Shown in pieces: positions 7,604 through 30,203 of a stretch of 39,028 nucleotides of DNA. The stretch comes from Tannerella sp. Lineage in GTDB: Bacteria; Bacteroidota; Bacteroidia; Bacteroidales; Tannerellaceae. Made by a program: the position numbers and the translations under genes. Within the stretch, counting starts at the first letter, position 1. Each line of letters opens with the position of its first letter. The stretch spans positions 1 to 39,028 of the forward strand of contig JAIROL010000189.1 in NCBI GenBank assembly GCA_031257565.1. The letters are read 5' to 3'. The notes beneath the pieces are model-generated. The model made no database searches. It was not told the DNA's origin and worked only from the letters and a program-made list of their open reading frames with translations.

Positions 7604-8122
7604 TTAGTAATCCTCCATCTGACTTATAATTGTACCATCGCTTTTAATTATAATGCGAACGTCCACGTCGCCCCTTTCCATTTCTACATTGTATGATACA
7701 TCAGTTCCTTTTATTATCCTTTCTATATCATCAAAACGATAGTTTGGATATTTCGATGTTATCTGCTTTTTTATCAAATCCGGCAGGTCAGACTGGTAGA
7801 TGTCATATATTAACATAACCAAATGGCCTTGCTCGTCATAATATGCTTGGTAGTCAGATCCTCTGATCTCAAATTCTATTTCATATAGAGATGCTGCTTT
7901 TTCCCATTCAATATCGTAAGCATTTGGAAAGTCTTTCCTGAATTTTTGTACTAAAAGTTCGGTTGGTACTACATTTTGTGAATACTCCATCTTGAATGCC
8001 TGTACCATTTTTTCTATCTCATTGTTATCATATTTTTTTGACATTGACGGATGTTGGGCTGATGCATATAGAAAAGATAATGATGTTAATAATAACAATA
8101 GTCCTAATCTTAAAGTTTTCAT
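7604..8122 (-). CDS. Secreted PepSY-like domain protein
   Basis: The 172-residue protein has a signal peptide (MKTLRLGLLLLLTSLSFLYA, cleavage near ASA-Q). The body follows the Bacteroidetes PepSY-like (DUF2874, PF11396) pattern: KFRKDFPNAYDIEWEKAASL, YEIEFEIRGSDYQAYYDEQG and later KKQITSKYPNYRFDDIERI. Such proteins are periplasmic or surface exposed and may bind peptides or act as inhibitors; no enzyme motif is visible. It is the third gene of an apparent minus-strand operon, 26 bases after the beta-barrel gene, and resembles each half of the lipoprotein at 8853. Duplication within the cluster is likely. Confidence 0.8.
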   Translation of the reverse strand: MKTLRLGLLLLLTSLSFLYASAQHPSMSKKYDNNEIEKMVQAFKMEYSQNVVPTELLVQKFRKDFPNAYDIEWEKAASLYEIEFEIRGSDYQAYYDEQGHLVMLIYDIYQSDLPDLIKKQITSKYPNYRFDDIERIIKGTDVSYNVEMERGDVDVRIIIKSDGTIISQMEDY

Positions 8123-8852: not shown

Positions 8853-9875
8853 TTAATCATATTGTTGATAAATGAATGTGCCGTTCTCATTGTATATCAC
8901 TTTCAATTCGGCGTCTGTCCTTTTATTTTCCAACTTGATGATATATCCTTTCACTGTTCCTTTTTGGAAATAAGATACTTCATCTATCATATACTCGGAA
9001 TACTTTGAGGAAACAGCATTTTGTACAGCAGTAGATACTGTGTTGTATCTTATTTCCTGTGTGTACATTAATAGTGTTCCATCGCTAACATACCATGCCT
9101 CGTAGTCAATTCCTCCAATTTCAAAATCTACATTATACACATTGCTAACATAGTCCCAGTCAATATCGCGGGCATTTGGAAAAAGGGTATTGAAGTTTGC
9201 AATAATGCCAGAAGGCACATTTGAAGCCAACACATCCATATCCATACCTGAATAATATGCGGCAATAAGGGCGTCTGATTCGTCGTCAGATGTATTTCCT
9301 TCAATTGTTGGGGTAGTCGTATTGGCATCGTTCCCCGGTTTTATGGTATTGTCTTCCCACAGATTCCTGGCAATAAATGTACCGTTCTCATTGTAAAAAG
9401 CATATACTTCTTCTTTATTTTTTTTCAGATCCAAGTAATAACCGATAATATCTCCTTTGTATACGATCTCTGTTTCATCAAGGATATAGCCCTGATAATC
9501 GGTTGCAATAGCGGCTAATACAGCCGGACTCAATTGGCTGTTTGCAATATCATATTTGTACATCAGCAAATTAGCATCGCCATTATACCAGGCCTCATAG
9601 TCTATGTGGTTGACGTCAAAGTCTATTTCATATATGCCGTTTGACACTTTCCACTCCACATCGGTTGCTCCGGGGAACTTCTTATCAAATTCGGCCTTAA
9701 TATTATTGACCGGCTGCGTAGGGGACGATGGAGATGAATAATATGTCGCAATTTGCAACTTTATATCACTTTGTTGTAAATCACTGTTTACATCTAAGGA
9801 CTCTGAATCGCTACTACAACTTGCCCCCAGAAAAGCGAGAGAACTTAAAACGAAGAATCTAATTAACGTTTTCAT
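8853..9875 (-). CDS. Lipoprotein with two tandem PepSY-like domains
   Basis: The 340-residue protein has a lipoprotein signal (FFVLSSLAFLGASC, lipid Cys at residue 20) followed by a Ser/Asp-rich linker. Two similar domains follow. Domain 1 (about 55-175) has FDKKFPGATDVEWKVSNGIY, EIDFDVNHIDYEAWYN and YNENGTFI. Domain 2 (about 220-340) has FNTLFPNARDIDWDYVSNVY, NVDFEIGGIDYEAWYV and YNENGTFIYQQYD. A Thr/Asp-rich linker (about 180-205) joins them. The pattern is PepSY-like/DUF2874. It is first in the operon and probably faces the periplasm or cell surface. The internal duplication is clear from the repeated IDYEAWY and NENGTFI blocks. The function is unknown. Confidence 0.82.
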   Translation of the reverse strand: MKTLIRFFVLSSLAFLGASCSSDSESLDVNSDLQQSDIKLQIATYYSSPSSPTQPVNNIKAEFDKKFPGATDVEWKVSNGIYEIDFDVNHIDYEAWYNGDANLLMYKYDIANSQLSPAVLAAIATDYQGYILDETEIVYKGDIIGYYLDLKKNKEEVYAFYNENGTFIARNLWEDNTIKPGNDANTTTPTIEGNTSDDESDALIAAYYSGMDMDVLASNVPSGIIANFNTLFPNARDIDWDYVSNVYNVDFEIGGIDYEAWYVSDGTLLMYTQEIRYNTVSTAVQNAVSSKYSEYMIDEVSYFQKGTVKGYIIKLENKRTDAELKVIYNENGTFIYQQYD

Positions 9876-20438: not shown

Positions 20439-23400
20439 ATGGCATTCAGAAAAGATACAAAAATAAAGAGTGACTTTACAAAAATAACAATTGGGTTGGC
20501 GTCGCCGGAAGATGTTTTAGAAAATTCTCATGGCGAAGTGCTTAAACCGGAAACAATAAACTATCGCACATACAAACCGGAACGCGACGGTTTGTTTTGC
20601 GAGCGCATATTTGGTCCTGTAAAAAATTATGAATGTTATTGCGGTAAGTATAAACGTATCCGCTATAAAGGCATAGTTTGCGACCGATGCGGTGTGGAAG
20701 TTACTGAAAAGAAAGTGCGTCGCGAGCGTACCGGACATATACATTTGGTTGTGCCTGTAGCACATATATGGTATTTCCGTACTTTACCGAATAAAATCGG
20801 TTATTTATTAGGATTACCGACTAAAAAGTTGGATTCTATCATTTATTATGAACGCTATGTCGTCATACAAAGGGGTTGCGTTGATTCGGTCGATGATTTG
20901 AATCTTTTGTCGGAAGAAGAATATCTTCAGATACTGGATGGTCTGCCAAAAGAAAATCAGATGCTCGAAGATACGGATCCTAATAAGTTTATTGCAAAAA
21001 TAGGCGCCGAAGCAATATATGACCTGTTAGTCAGACTGGACTTGGACGCTCTTTCCTATGAATTACGTAATCATGCGATGACGGACACTTCGCAACAACG
21101 TAAGAATGAAGCGTTAAAACGCTTGCAGGTAGTGGAATCTTTCCGCGCATCTAAGGGAAGGAATAAACCGGAGTGGATGGTCGTGAAAGTTGTTCCGGTG
21201 ATTCCGCCGGAGTTGCGTCCGCTTGTTCCGCTTGACGGAGGTCGTTTTGCGACGTCCGACTTGAATGATTTGTATCGCCGCGTTATTATACGAAATAATC
21301 GTCTTAAACGGTTGATTGATATAAAAGCCCCCGAAGTAATCTTACGTAATGAAAAACGTATGTTGCAAGAGGCTGTCGATTCGCTTTTTGACAATTCAAG
21401 AAAGTCGAGCGCCGTTAAATCAGATGCAAATCGTCCGTTAAAATCCTTATCCGATAGCTTGAAAGGAAAACAGGGACGTTTTCGTCAGAACCTGTTAGGA
21501 AAGCGCGTAGACTATTCTGCGCGCTCGGTGATCGTTGTTGGTCCGGAACTTAAAATGGGTGAATGCGGGATACCTAAAGATATGGCGGCCGAGTTGTATA
21601 AACCGTTTATCATCCGTAAGTTGATAGAACGCGGAATCGTGAAAACGGTTAAATCGGCGAAAAAGATTGTGGACCGTAAAGAGCCGGTTGTATGGGATAT
21701 CCTCGAATATGTAATGAAAGGACATCCGGCGCTCCTTAACCGCGCTCCGACATTGCACCGTTTAGGAATACAAGCGTTTCAGCCAAGAATGATAGAAGGA
21801 AAAGCTATTCAATTGCATCCTCTGGCATGTACTGCATTTAATGCGGATTTTGACGGAGATCAGATGGCCGTACACCTGCCATTAGGAAATGAAGCTATCC
21901 TTGAAGCGCAAATGTTGATGCTTGCTTCGCATAACATACTGAATCCTGCTAATGGAGCGCCTATTACGGTACCTTCGCAGGATATGGTACTCGGATTATA
22001 TTATATTACAAAGATCCGTCCCGGTATGAAAGGGGAGGGATTGGTATTCTACGGACCGGAAGAAGCTACGATTGCTTATAACGAGGGCAAACTGGATATA
22101 CATGCTATTATAAAAGTTTGTGTTGACGACGTAGATGAAAACGGAGAATTTGTTAAGAAACTTATCGAAACAAGCGTTGGCCGTTTGATGATAAATGAAT
22201 ATATTCCGAGAGAAGTAGGTTTTGTAAATGAGGTCTTAGGCAAAAAGACTTTGCGCGATATCATCAGCGATGTTATAAAAATATGCGGCGTAGCGCGTAC
22301 TTGTCAGTTCCTTGACGATATAAAGAATCTCGGATATTATATGGCCTTCAAGGGAGGTTTGTCGTTTAATCTGGCAGATGTGCTTATTCCAAATGAAAAA
22401 GATTCGTTGGTAAAAGAAGGATACGATGAAGTAGAACAAATCGTAGCTAATTATAGCATGGGTTTCATTACAAATAACGAGCGTTATAATCAAATTATTG
22501 ATACATGGACGCATGTAAACAGCAGATTGTCAAAAATTCTTATAGATAAGCTAAGCGCTGATAATGACGGATTCAACTCTATCTATATGATGATGGATTC
22601 CGGCGCCCGTGGTTCTAAAGAACAGATACGACAACTTTCCGGTATGCGCGGGTTGATGGCCAAACCGCAGAAGAGCGGAAGCGATGGCGGTCAGATCATC
22701 GAGAATCCGATTTTGTCGAATTTTAAGGAAGGATTGTCGGTATTGGAATACTTCATTTCTACGCACGGCGCTCGTAAGGGTTTGGCTGATACGGCATTGA
22801 AGACTGCCGACGCGGGATACCTGACACGTCGTCTTGTAGATGTTTCTCATGATGTGATTATTAACGAAGAAGATTGTGGAACGCTACGCGGTTTGACATG
22901 TACGGAACTTAAAAATAACGAAGATGTTATAGCTAAACTTTACGAACGGATTCTTGGACGCGTATCCGTTCATGATATCATTCATCCTATTACCGGAAAA
23001 GCGATCGTTAAAGCCGGCGAAGAAATTCGTGAAAAAGAAGCGCAGGAGATACAGGATTCGCCAATAGAAAGTGTGGAGATACGCTCGGTTCTTACTTGTG
23101 AATCCAAGAAAGGCGTATGCGCAAAATGCTATGGTCGAAACCTTGCTACAGGACAGATGGTTCAGAAAGGCGAAGTCGTTGGCGTTATTGCCGCGCAATC
23201 GATCGGCGAGCCGGGTACGCAGTTGACCCTTCGCACATTCCACGTGGGGGGTATTGCCTCTAATATCGCGACGGAAAACAGCCTTGTTTCAAAATATGAC
23301 GGCGTGCTGGAAATAGATGAGTTACGTACGGTTTACTCTGTAGACGACAAATGTAATGTTGTTGTGAGTCGTCTTGCCGAAATGCGTATTGTTGATTCAC

Positions 23401-26396: not shown

Positions 26397-26838
26397 TTAA
26401 CCCAATTTGCCGCGCGTCGAGATGTAAATATGCGGAATTTCAGTCGCCCATCTCGAAACGCAGGACAGTTTCGGTGATGAGGGTCTGAAAAGAGTTATTA
26501 AATCTTCGCCATAACAATTAGGCGACATAAATTGTCCCGTAAGTTTTCCCTGTGGCCCGACCTCTATCCGCGTGGCAATCACGGCTTCTATGCCTTCTTT
26601 CTCCGCCCATGACAATTCCGGTTTCTATCGACGCGCTTACAATGATAACTTTATGGCCATTCATCACATGTTTTTTTAGCGTCCGGTAAACGTCCTGCCT
26701 GACACAATGATCAATTGTCGATATAAAGGAGACTCCAAAGTCATTGAATTTTTCAATGTGCCAATTCCTGTAAAACAGGGAAAAAAGCGCCTGTTTTGCT
26801 TTGCCGTTATCCAATAATCCTGTTTTATAACTTTTTTA
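26397..26838 (-). pseudogene. HAD-IB family phosphatase, broken by frameshifts
   Basis: Fragments in two frames join into one protein of the HAD subfamily IB (SerB-like phosphatases). The first reads KTGLLDNGKAKQALFSLFYR, then HVMNGHKVIIVSASIE, the motif II region. The second reads SWAEKEGIEAVIATRIEV, then GKLTGQFMSPNCYG and ends IPHIYISTRGKLG, where the motif III/IV YGDSxxD has been deleted to STRG. The N-terminal nucleophile motif DxDGT is absent, the 5' end meeting a GC-rich hairpin (CGCCGG/CCGGCG, 26839-26856). The gene cannot give an active enzyme. Confidence 0.65.
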
Positions 26839-27158: not shown

Positions 27159-27443
27159 ATGAAATATGAAGAAGTATTGATTTTGGCGCGTAGCCTGTCA
27201 CAAGAAGATCAGTTACAGTTGGTTGTGAATCTAACACAGCCGCAAACAGGCGACGGCGGGATATTTCGCGGTCGCGGTAAATCATTTACCAACAGACAGG
27301 TTCCTTGTCCGCATTATGGCGGCAAGCATTATAAGCGTTCAGGAAAAACCGGCGGCTCGCAACGCTTCAAGCGCCATGATTGTGGAAAAACGTTCACAGA
27401 ATATGCTGTTAGCAACACAAAATTAAACTATAACCATATTTAA
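27159..27443 (+). mobile_element. IS1595-type transposase remnant (N-terminal zinc ribbon)
   Basis: The 94-residue ORF begins MKYEEVLILARSLSQEDQLQ and contains VPCPHYGGKHYKRSGKTGGS followed by QRFKRHDCGKTFTEY. This is the N-terminal zinc-ribbon part of IS1595-family (ISXO2-like) transposases, normally CPHC...KCHDCGKTF. Two of the four zinc ligands are replaced (Tyr and Arg), and the protein stops after TEYAVSNTKLN where the DDE catalytic domain should begin. It is therefore an inactive fragment. It ends three bases before the membrane regulator gene. Confidence 0.75.
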
Positions 27444-27446
27444 TGT

Positions 27447-30029
27447 ATGAAAAACACTCGCAAACCGACACGTTTCGATTACAGATGCATTGTTTCCTGT
27501 CTATTTATATATTTCTCCGTATCTGCTGTTTCGGCCCGGGAAATACAATATGGATTAAAATTCAACTCTAACAACTACGAACCCGAAGCGCGTACAAGTT
27601 TAAATTTAAGCCCTGATGGCTATCTTTCTTTTTCTAAAGGATTTTCTATGGCATTTGATGCTAAATTTCATTTCAAAGACGTGCATATATATGGCTATAT
27701 ATTCAAGATAATGAATGATAAAGGGAATACGATAGATCTTGTAATAGGGGACGTCAATCTTGTTTTTTCTATGCCTTCAGGGGGTATTGCCTCCAGTAAT
27801 ACCTTGTCTGATGTAAATATAGTTCCGGACCAATGGATTCCAATGTGCATAAACGTAGATATTGAAAAAGAAGAATTGAAAATAATAGCAGGAAAATATG
27901 AAGAAAAATGGAATACTCCCGAAGTACGGGAATTTAACAATGTAGAAATCGTGTTTGGGAAAATAAACGATCAGCGCAAACAAGTCATAGATGTTCCGGA
28001 TATGACCATTAAAAATCTGGAAATTGCCGATCTGCCGGGAAAGCCTAAATATTCATGGAAACTTTCCATGCACGCATCGGATGGGGTTTATGACGATTTG
28101 AAACGCCATTTTGCGAAATGCGAGAATCCAAACTGGCTATTGGACAGTTATGGAGTATGGAAAAAGGCGACGACATTTAACACAAATAGAACTCCTTATT
28201 TGTCATACGATTTTGACAAGAATAGGGTTGCTGTGGCCGATCAACATTCTTTTTATCTCTTTTCGGTAAAAGACAGCCGTTTGGAAAAGCGCGCCGTAAA
28301 TAAGAAACTATCCTATACCCTAACGGCGAATCAAATGATATATAACTCGTTGGATTCAAATTTCTACGCATATAATTTAATAAAAGAAAACGACGCCCGG
28401 GAATTTGTTCCGTTTGACTATTCGGAAGGCAAGTGGGGCATAACTACTGCACATGAGAACAATACGGAATACAGGCATCATAACCGGTATTTTTCTTCCA
28501 AATATAATCGTTTGTACATATTTGGAGGATATGGACATTTGAAATATAAAGAAGGAGTCTTTGTCTATGATGTTAATAGTGGATCATGGTCTAAAGAGGT
28601 ATTAAAAGGATATGTCCCGGCGCCGAGGTATTTAAGTGGGATGGGAAAAATAGATGATGATCATTTGTTATTGTTTGGCGGTTATGGAAGCGAAACCGGA
28701 GATCAGGCGCTTCAGGCTCAGTTTTATTATGATTGTTACATCGTTGATGTGAGAACAATGGAAGCCAAAAGGCTTTGGACGTTGGAAAATCCGGCAGAAA
28801 ATTTTGTTGTTTCGAATTCCCTGGTTGTCGATACGGCCAATAAAAGTTTTTATGCTTTATGTTATCCCCTTATGAAGTCTAACTCCATTATTTCATTATA
28901 CAGGTTTTCTCTGGAAAAGCCGGAATATGAAGTAATGGTCGGTCAGATGCCAATAAGGTTTAATGATGTGCTTTCGTACGTGGATCTTTTTCTTGATAAA
29001 ACCGAAAATAAATTAATTGCTACGACTTTTGCTCCTGACAGGGAAACGGAAGCAAATATATCGATATACACCATGTCGTTTCCTCCGTTGAAAAAATCCG
29101 ATATCTATCAGACAGGAAAAGAAAGTTCTACGGTTTTCCGGCTGACCCTGACCCTGTTACTGCTACTCTTTTCCGTTCTTGTTTTAATCCTGTTCTTTAT
29201 CAGGAAAAAGAGGAAACAGACGGGTCTCGGAGGTATTGGAAATAAGATAGAGGTAGGGAATAGTGTGGCTATTGCAGGAATCAATACGGTAAAACAATTA
29301 CAAAAGCAGACTATATATTTGTTTGGGGGGTTCCAGGTAGTCGATAAACAGGGAAATGATATAACGGCGGATTTCAAACCTTTATTAAAAAACTTGTTCC
29401 TGTTAATATTATTGAATACAATCAAAAATGGAAAAGGGATCTCCTTCTCTAAATTGAAAGAGATATTATGGTTTGACAAAAGCGAAGAGAGCGCTAATAA
29501 TAATCGAGGAGTCGCATTGAGCAAGATACGGCAAATAGTGGAGAATGTAGGTGGAATACGGTTTAATAAAAAAGGCGTCTACTGGAGCGTCGAATTCGGA
29601 GAGGAGGTTTACTGTGATTATTATGAGGCGCTTATTCTGATAAAAAAAATAAAAGAAAACAAAGAAACAACCATCCATGATATTAAAAGGCTTTTGGCGA
29701 TTGTTACGGTAGGAGAGCTTTTACCCAATACGCAAGTAGAATGGGCGGATATATTCAAATCTGATTTCTCCAATGAACTTGTCGACTTGATATTATCCCT
29801 CATCCGACGAGAATCTGCCGCATTTTCTGACGATACATATATTGAAATGGCGAATGCCCTATTAATTCATGATCCGTTAAATGAAGACGCCTTAAAATTA
29901 AAATGTAAAGCGCTGGTCAAAATGGGTAAAAACGGACTTGCCAAAAATACTTATACTACATTTACTAAAGAATATGCCATCCTGTTTGGAGTAGAGTATA
30001 AATATTCTTTCGATCAGATAGTCAATTAA
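27447..30029 (+). CDS. Membrane-spanning one-protein regulator: LamG/kelch-like sensor with SARP/BTAD-like output
   Basis: The 860-residue protein starts with a signal sequence (about 1-30, ending VSAVSA). Residues about 35-200 resemble a LamG/concanavalin-like fold (GYLSFSKGFSMAFDAKFHF, then VPDQWIPMCINVDIEKEELK). Residues about 240-550 look like a kelch-type propeller, with LYIFGGYGHLKYKEGVFVYD and LLLFGGYGSETGD. One helix spans the membrane at about 562-585 (LTLTLLLLLFSVLVLILFF). The cytoplasmic part has an OmpR/SARP-like winged helix (about 620-720, IYLFGGFQVVDKQGNDIT and NNNRGVALSKIRQI) and a helical BTAD-like end (about 725-860). I infer ligand-controlled transcription without a kinase. 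The ligand and targets are unknown. Confidence 0.75.
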   Translation: MKNTRKPTRFDYRCIVSCLFIYFSVSAVSAREIQYGLKFNSNNYEPEARTSLNLSPDGYLSFSKGFSMAFDAKFHFKDVHIYGYIFKIMNDKGNTIDLVIGDVNLVFSMPSGGIASSNTLSDVNIVPDQWIPMCINVDIEKEELKIIAGKYEEKWNTPEVREFNNVEIVFGKINDQRKQVIDVPDMTIKNLEIADLPGKPKYSWKLSMHASDGVYDDLKRHFAKCENPNWLLDSYGVWKKATTFNTNRTPYLSYDFDKNRVAVADQHSFYLFSVKDSRLEKRAVNKKLSYTLTANQMIYNSLDSNFYAYNLIKENDAREFVPFDYSEGKWGITTAHENNTEYRHHNRYFSSKYNRLYIFGGYGHLKYKEGVFVYDVNSGSWSKEVLKGYVPAPRYLSGMGKIDDDHLLLFGGYGSETGDQALQAQFYYDCYIVDVRTMEAKRLWTLENPAENFVVSNSLVVDTANKSFYALCYPLMKSNSIISLYRFSLEKPEYEVMVGQMPIRFNDVLSYVDLFLDKTENKLIATTFAPDRETEANISIYTMSFPPLKKSDIYQTGKESSTVFRLTLTLLLLLFSVLVLILFFIRKKRKQTGLGGIGNKIEVGNSVAIAGINTVKQLQKQTIYLFGGFQVVDKQGNDITADFKPLLKNLFLLILLNTIKNGKGISFSKLKEILWFDKSEESANNNRGVALSKIRQIVENVGGIRFNKKGVYWSVEFGEEVYCDYYEALILIKKIKENKETTIHDIKRLLAIVTVGELLPNTQVEWADIFKSDFSNELVDLILSLIRRESAAFSDDTYIEMANALLIHDPLNEDALKLKCKALVKMGKNGLAKNTYTTFTKEYAILFGVEYKYSFDQIVN

Positions 30030-30134
30030 AGGACTGCGTTTCTTAGGCGCTGTCAATAAATAAATATGTCAAATTATATTTATAACAAATTATCATATAG
30101 CAAATTAATATAAAGATAAGATGTATTTATTATT

Positions 30135-30167
30135 AGACAGCTACTTAACATGATGAGCTGTCTTTTT
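30135..30167 (+). terminator. Terminator after the membrane regulator
   Basis: AGACAGCT (30135-30142) pairs perfectly with AGCTGTCT (30156-30163) across a 13-base loop and is followed by TTTT. It lies 106 bases after the regulator stop and before the tdh promoter. Confidence 0.65.
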
Positions 30168-30203
30168 ATAAAATGAGATAAAACAACAAACAAAATATTT
30201 TGT

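Follow-up and report, generated by a model that had tools for sequence, protein, structure and literature searches.

A predicted membrane-anchored SARP-type regulator of glycan-utilisation loci in Tannerella and other Bacteroidota

A gene on a contig of Tannerella sp. (JAIROL010000189.1; 39,028 nucleotides, analysed as a whole and hereafter called the window) encodes a protein which, with a probability that we put at roughly 0.7, is a one-component activator of the SARP type, anchored in the membrane and acting on glycan-utilisation loci. The predicted structure of the protein, the genes that accompany its relatives and an array of short direct repeats ahead of these genes point to this function.

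Results

Domain architecture of the focal protein

The features of the gene and of its immediate surroundings are collected in Table 1.

Table 1. Features in and around the regulator gene; positions are those of the window and residues those of the encoded protein.
Feature	Position	Strand	Basis
Short ORF with zinc-ribbon-like cysteine pattern, directly upstream of the gene	27159..27443	+	
Stretch shared with locus L023, 90% DNA identity	27436..30045	+	
Gene for the 860-aa membrane-anchored SARP-type regulator (predicted)	27447..30029	+	full-length homologs found
N-terminal export helix, residues 12-27	27480..27527	+	AlphaFold helix
LamG/concanavalin-like beta-sandwich, residues ~35-205	27549..28061	+	AlphaFold strands and Foldseek
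Kelch beta-propeller, residues 233-549	28143..29093	+	AlphaFold and fold search
Transmembrane helix, residues 562-586, followed by RKKRK	29130..29204	+	AlphaFold, hydropathy
Disordered juxtamembrane linker, residues ~587-617	29205..29297	+	pLDDT <50 at 586-617
OmpR/SARP-type winged helix, residues ~622-720	29310..29606	+	AlphaFold and fold comparison
BTAD, TPR-like helical domain, residues ~724-859	29616..30023	+	AlphaFold and fold comparison; Pfam weak
Stem-loop with T run, probable terminator	30135..30168	+	

The original prediction had read a signal sequence, a LamG-like segment, kelch motifs, a long hydrophobic helix, a winged-helix segment and a helical, BTAD-like C-terminus from the letters of the sequence, and all of these parts were recovered in the AlphaFold model. 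The signal sequence corresponds to the export helix, at a site where hydropathy exceeds 1.6 in several homologs but not in the focal protein. The LamG-like segment forms a sandwich for which Foldseek returned laminin G (1qu0_C) with an E value of 4.3e-7; sequence-level matches were weak, a PDB sequence search with the LamG profile gave no significant match, and fold comparison alone succeeded. The kelch motifs belong to the predicted propeller, structure prediction having been set as the test beforehand, and the hydrophobic helix, originally given as near residues 562-585, was placed at residues 562-586, with AlphaFold and hydropathy as evidence. In this model the LamG and kelch domains would lie outside the inner membrane and the SARP half in the cytoplasm.

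The cytoplasmic half was modelled with a pLDDT of 92.5, the winged helix and the BTAD following each other as one module, and here structure prediction and fold search agreed with what had been proposed. AfsR and EmbR were the sole Foldseek matches at E≤1e-3 and also ranked top in VIA-align, with a sequence identity to solved SARPs of only 12-18%. No Pfam or NCBIfam family names the whole focal protein, and BTAD stayed below the cut-off; among 28 family members, two matched Pfam BTAD at E≤0.1. A PDB sequence search with the cytoplasmic profile gave no significant match. By its modelled fold, the cytoplasmic half is a complete SARP module.

The single transmembrane helix and the long disordered linker of the model would also permit regulated proteolysis, in which the ligand triggers cleavage and the SARP half is freed as a soluble factor. 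No finding requires such a cleavage and this mode of action seems rather improbable.

The regulator family and its gene context

A contig scan with two N-terminal peptide patterns, which favours close kin and is non-exhaustive, yielded 31 family loci. Their hosts include Dysgonamonadaceae, Tannerella, Tannerellaceae, Candidatus Azobacteroides and Candidatus Symbiothrix (the latter two being termite-gut symbionts), as well as Bacteroides nordii, B. salyersiae, Barnesiella, Muribaculum, Hufsiella arboris and others. With a profile of the SARP half at E≤1e-10, matches were found in 13 of 392 drawn Bacteroidota genomes, and 16 of 61 related genomes have a regulator match (both counts include the own genome), the one in G032 being partial and at a contig end. 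The own genome holds four full-length members, namely that of the window and three others at 45%, 28% and 28% identity. In all 28 members scanned, a hydrophobic segment precedes the SARP half and a kelch match at E≤0.1 is present. Two members of another genome (G033:C68, 10449-12987, and G033:C8, 3312-5611) are each matched as two parts that fall in different open frames and are possibly broken copies.

A search for the same architecture and its neighbouring genes had been proposed with the original prediction, and it connected the family to glycan uptake. Within the 31 loci, susC was found in 18, susD in 14, GH92 in 6, GH43 in 5 and GH3 in 3. These are raw counts, taken on either side and strand within at most 8 kb, a range frequently shortened by contig ends; neighbours were clustered by similarity and named from Pfam matches of one or two members each. 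The 13 loci without susC include some that are truncated by contig ends. In the own genome, the paralog locus on contig C256 contains susC, susD, GH43, GH92, GH3 and a GDSL esterase.

The closest orthologs (L023, L024, L025 and L026) are 87, 88, 78 and 72% identical to the focal protein. In all four the regulator lies directly upstream of susC, followed by susD on the same strand, and in three of them clustering places a DUF3823 gene after susD. The susC of L024 shows as two ORFs.

A repeat array ahead of regulator-adjacent operons

Upstream of operons adjoining the regulator, TTAA-type direct repeats spaced by 11-12 bp precede a TAnnTTTG box, which we take to be the −7 element of Bacteroides promoters. 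Among 21 chosen sites, 20 show predicted repeats starting at −38 or −39, −27 and −15, and the seven-base unit from −15 ends 8 bp before the box. This spacing first emerged on visual inspection of L032, L027, L046, L031 and the focal clade, and was then scored with jitter. The score comprises the box and three repeats, with a maximum of 18, and was applied to the 31 loci (438,024 bp), to 20 dinucleotide shuffles and to the reversed sequence.

At a score of at least 17, the loci contained 16 sites against a shuffle mean of 0.05 (most 1) and none in the reversed sequence; 13 arrays were perfect, with none in either control. At ≥16 there were 24 sites (shuffle mean 1.0, most 3; reversed 2) and at ≥15 there were 35 (mean 7.55, most 13; reversed 16). 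These statistics are not fully blind because the position of the first repeat (−38/−39) was fixed after the first scoring. Three of the 16 arrays at ≥17 come from loci of the first look (L027, one of L032, and L046), and the other 13 are distributed over 10 loci, among which L043 and L044 are near relatives. An array was present in 12 of the 31 loci at ≥17 and in 17 at ≥16, leaving 14 without any at ≥16.

All 24 arrays at ≥16 lie outside the listed ORFs (minimum length 90 aa), and 20 are situated 33-177 bp ahead of an ORF on the same strand. Three of the remaining four have no ORF in reach and for one it is 583 bp away. The first genes behind the arrays include susC, GH43, GH92, a pectate-lyase-like gene and one for a GxGYxYP protein; L032, L034, L041, L043 and L044 each have two or more array promoters. 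The first scoring showed no clear array at the susC promoters of C256 and L047, nor in the regulator-side intergenic regions of L045 and L034. The C256 and L034 loci do have arrays elsewhere.

Distribution of the array beyond the family loci

Fourteen regions around distant members (249,738 bp) gave two sites at ≥17 against a control mean of 0.05 (most 1), three at ≥16 (0.9, most 3; reversed 1) and ten at ≥15 (8.0; reversed 18); no array at ≥16 was present in 11 of the 14.

Searching 61 genomes for the exact pattern returned 18 sites in 11 genomes, with none in the reversed control. Seven of the 18 were known from the earlier scans: G001:C11, G016:C118, G002:C208, G002:C55 and G000:C256 (partly as L028, L046 and L029), and also G000:C167 and C288, G000 being the own genome. 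An exact array was found in 9 of 16 regulator genomes and in 2 of 45 others (9, 7; 2, 43; Fisher p 2.8e-5, ignoring kinship). Kinship is likewise ignored in the comparisons within the genus, where 9 of 15 members with the regulator and 2 of 22 without it have the array (p 0.0014), or 7 of 13 and 1 of 17 after removal of members less than 75% complete (p 0.005). The remaining 7 of the 16 regulator genomes have no exact array; the 16 include G032, which counts by its partial match. When mismatches were allowed in the own genome, the pattern no longer stood out from its reversed control (7 sites versus 7 at two mismatches, 46 versus 48 at three). Thus, in the own genome, the strict forms of the pattern alone carry information.

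Six of the 18 exact arrays share a contig with a listed regulator, and the other 12 are on contigs without one. One of these lies in the own genome at a susC promoter (C288, ~22135-22181; L110, L173): it is a perfect TTAA array with no family regulator on its contig, and the only one of 40 own-genome susC upstream regions, scored on the gene strand, to reach 16 (among the 40, one is 132 bp long and one derives from a paralog locus). One of the four regulators may use it as an additional target, or its own regulator may lie past the contig end. A strict array without mismatch is also found on C167 (4352-4397), and arrays with one mismatch on C54 (6424-6470) and C200 (6511-6556), all in or near glycan-type loci; none of these contigs carries a listed regulator.

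The 12 arrays on contigs without a listed regulator, and the perfect one at the susC promoter on C288 in particular, would be expected if the repeats were read by another regulator common in such loci, the focal protein sensing or binding something else. Against this, the arrays track the regulator family across the 61 genomes, and their spacing fits a SARP and not the HTCS or SusR spacings given in PMC3878776. We consider another reader quite unlikely and regard the arrays as probable operators of the SARP family.

The window copy and its separated operon

In the window, the gene sits between herA, itself behind rpoB-rpoC, and an epimerase gene. No susC, susD or glycosidase genes were found beside it within the window, and the original remark that it has no obvious operon partner holds: this copy is orphaned. 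Homology to L023 is confined to the gene, beginning 11 bp ahead of the start codon and ending 16 bp past the stop. Judged by resemblance, the short ORF directly upstream is probably the N-terminal remnant of a transposase; it gave no Pfam match at E≤0.01 and no tblastn match in the other loci compared. Further upstream, 35 bp (26397-26431) recur at 94% on contig C79 of the own genome (L083/L161), and behind the gene 41 bp (30100-30140) recur identically on C200 (L171, 2411-2451), shortly before an array, possibly as a short mobile repeat. Elsewhere in the window, two close-set genes on the minus strand (7604-8122 and 8853-9875) encode proteins of one similarity family (cluster 174).

The window RpoB shares 88-94% identity with its counterparts in three genus members and 81-82% with those in the hosts of L023, L025 and L026, none being found for the host of L024. 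HerA is 75-80% identical within the genus versus 43% in the hosts of L024 and L026, with no match in those of L023 and L025. In the regulator tree, the focal protein groups with L023 and L024 (100/100) and L025 (99/97), all from Dysgonamonadaceae.

The operon which in the orthologs adjoins the regulator was found on another contig of the own genome, C42. There, susC and susD, 92% and 94% identical to those of the ortholog locus, lie side by side, followed by a DUF3823 gene and a SASA esterase gene, with no regulator in front of susC-susD. The contig has kept the ~80-bp element placed between regulator and susC in L023-L026 (77-88% DNA identity over 61-279 bp), and a 19-base core of it has a single exact match in the own genome; with up to three mismatches, the core gave 24 matches versus 30 in the control. 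The C42 promoter has the variant repeats CTAA, TTAA and GTAA and the box GATATTTG, with a score of 15 out of 18. Because chance reaches this score, the case for this promoter rests on conservation and identical spacing. In L024 the element occurs twice (9821 and 10301), right behind the regulator stop and before susC. A palindrome within the element (ATGCAAA...TTTGCAT) was dropped as a candidate, being lost in L024 and overlapping the −7 box.

Judged from these sequence comparisons, the susC-susD-DUF3823-esterase operon on C42 would most likely be the target of the focal gene. This gives substance to the original suggestion that targets lie elsewhere. The accompanying suggestion that the protein acts on its own locus found no support, as the window contains no array at ≥16 and one at 15. 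The simplest account would be that regulator and operon were acquired laterally and later separated. No 'empty site' could be demonstrated between herA and the epimerase gene, since the content behind herA differs in three relatives, in one of which only ~880 bp follow herA.

The solitary position of the gene beside a probable transposase remnant, homology to L023 that stops right at its ends and the variable content behind herA in three genus members would also suit a copy left stranded by the transfer, decaying or unemployed, with something else running the C42 operon. Since the frame is intact over all 860 codons, the cytoplasmic half shares 91% identity with its L023 counterpart and the C42 element is conserved, we hold this to be unlikely. 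It might further be supposed that the window contig (C207) is chimeric or C42 misbinned, and that gene and target do not share a genome: the regulator groups with Dysgonamonadaceae while the window RpoB is nearer to its own genus, and the assembly consists of 294 contigs with 2.19% estimated contamination. This is very unlikely, given that the gene is embedded in a 39-kb contig, where it immediately follows an rpoB-rpoC-herA stretch belonging to the lineage of the genome, and the function of the family is independent of this contig. A transferred regulator with an operon on another contig of the same genome is the reading that we prefer.

Discussion

In the scheme that we propose, the exported LamG and kelch domains would bind a ligand outside the inner membrane. 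This ligand would most likely be an oligosaccharide freed by the cognate SusC/SusD system, a glycan being suggested by the gene context. Its binding may alter the pairing of the transmembrane proteins, upon which the cytoplasmic SARP modules would align head-to-tail on three or more TTAA-type repeats. Fold and spacing suggest that they would then contact RNA polymerase beside the −7 box, in the manner of AfsR at the afsS promoter, and that susC-susD and glycosidase operons would be transcribed, i.e. activated rather than repressed. Kinase, receiver and anti-sigma factor would be unnecessary.

On balance we lean towards a wider reading, in which Bacteroidota possess, in addition to SusR, HTCS and ECF sigma/anti-sigma pairs, a further class of glycan-sensing regulators: membrane SARPs, assembling on arrays of direct repeats with 11-12 bp spacing, would recruit RNA polymerase directly, regulator and operon would move between bacterial families, and the array would keep the wiring after the two have parted, as proposed for the genome of the window. 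If this is true, a SARP combined with an exported glycan-type sensor joins environment and promoter across the membrane in one protein, in bacteria whose livelihood is glycan degradation. Glycan loci, among them the GH43/GH92 loci of cultured Bacteroides salyersiae and B. nordii, thereby gain a predicted regulator and a DNA address that can be read. Each half of the protein was known already; their union, and a SARP heading glycan loci, did not appear among the literature matches listed. The full-text search returned no such regulator of glycan loci among these matches (titles and abstract starts), with subscription journals and preprints mostly outside its range.

ToxR and CadC are winged-helix activators tethered to the inner membrane, with the DNA-binding domain N-terminal and no known BTAD, whereas in the focal protein winged helix and BTAD are C-terminal, after the membrane helix. 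The HTCS of Bacteroides resemble it in being one polypeptide with a large exported sensor, often propeller-built, and in their placement in glycan loci. Unlike them, it has no histidine kinase, as originally stated, and no ATPase, receiver or AraC domain among its Pfam matches to E 10; the same library finds HTCS domains in a neighbour gene at L026.

SusR of Bacteroides thetaiotaomicron, according to PMC3878776, is a membrane protein that activates a susC-susD system and has a periplasmic sensor and a C-terminal cytoplasmic DNA-binding part. The focal protein is predicted to share this order of exported sensor, membrane helix and C-terminal DNA-binding part. The DNA-binding domain of SusR is said there to be unlike any other known one, whereas that of the focal protein is of the SARP type, a comparison made by description. 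The same text gives predicted SusR repeats 67 or 77 bp apart and an HTCS repeat spacing of ~21 bp, in contrast to the 11-12 bp of the focal-family arrays.

Actinobacteria have membrane-bound BTAD proteins with LysM domains, and tethering of a BTAD may therefore not be unique; the SARP literature search returned nothing on such proteins among the matches listed. SARPs are known mainly as soluble activators of antibiotic genes in actinobacteria (abstract of PMC10936776, and in part general background). AfsR of Streptomyces coelicolor and EmbR of Mycobacterium tuberculosis have the winged helix and BTAD found across the whole cytoplasmic half of the focal protein, in which an exported sensor and a transmembrane helix come first and this module forms the C-terminal end. 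PMC10936776 gives a spacing of 11 or 22 bp for SARP repeats, the last one being 8 bp from the −10 element, and the predicted array matches such promoters in its direct repeats, its 11-12 bp spacing and a last repeat ~8 bp from the box. The afs box of AfsR has two repeats and the predicted operator of the focal family three or more, in promoters of the Bacteroidota type whose predicted targets are glycan uptake genes.
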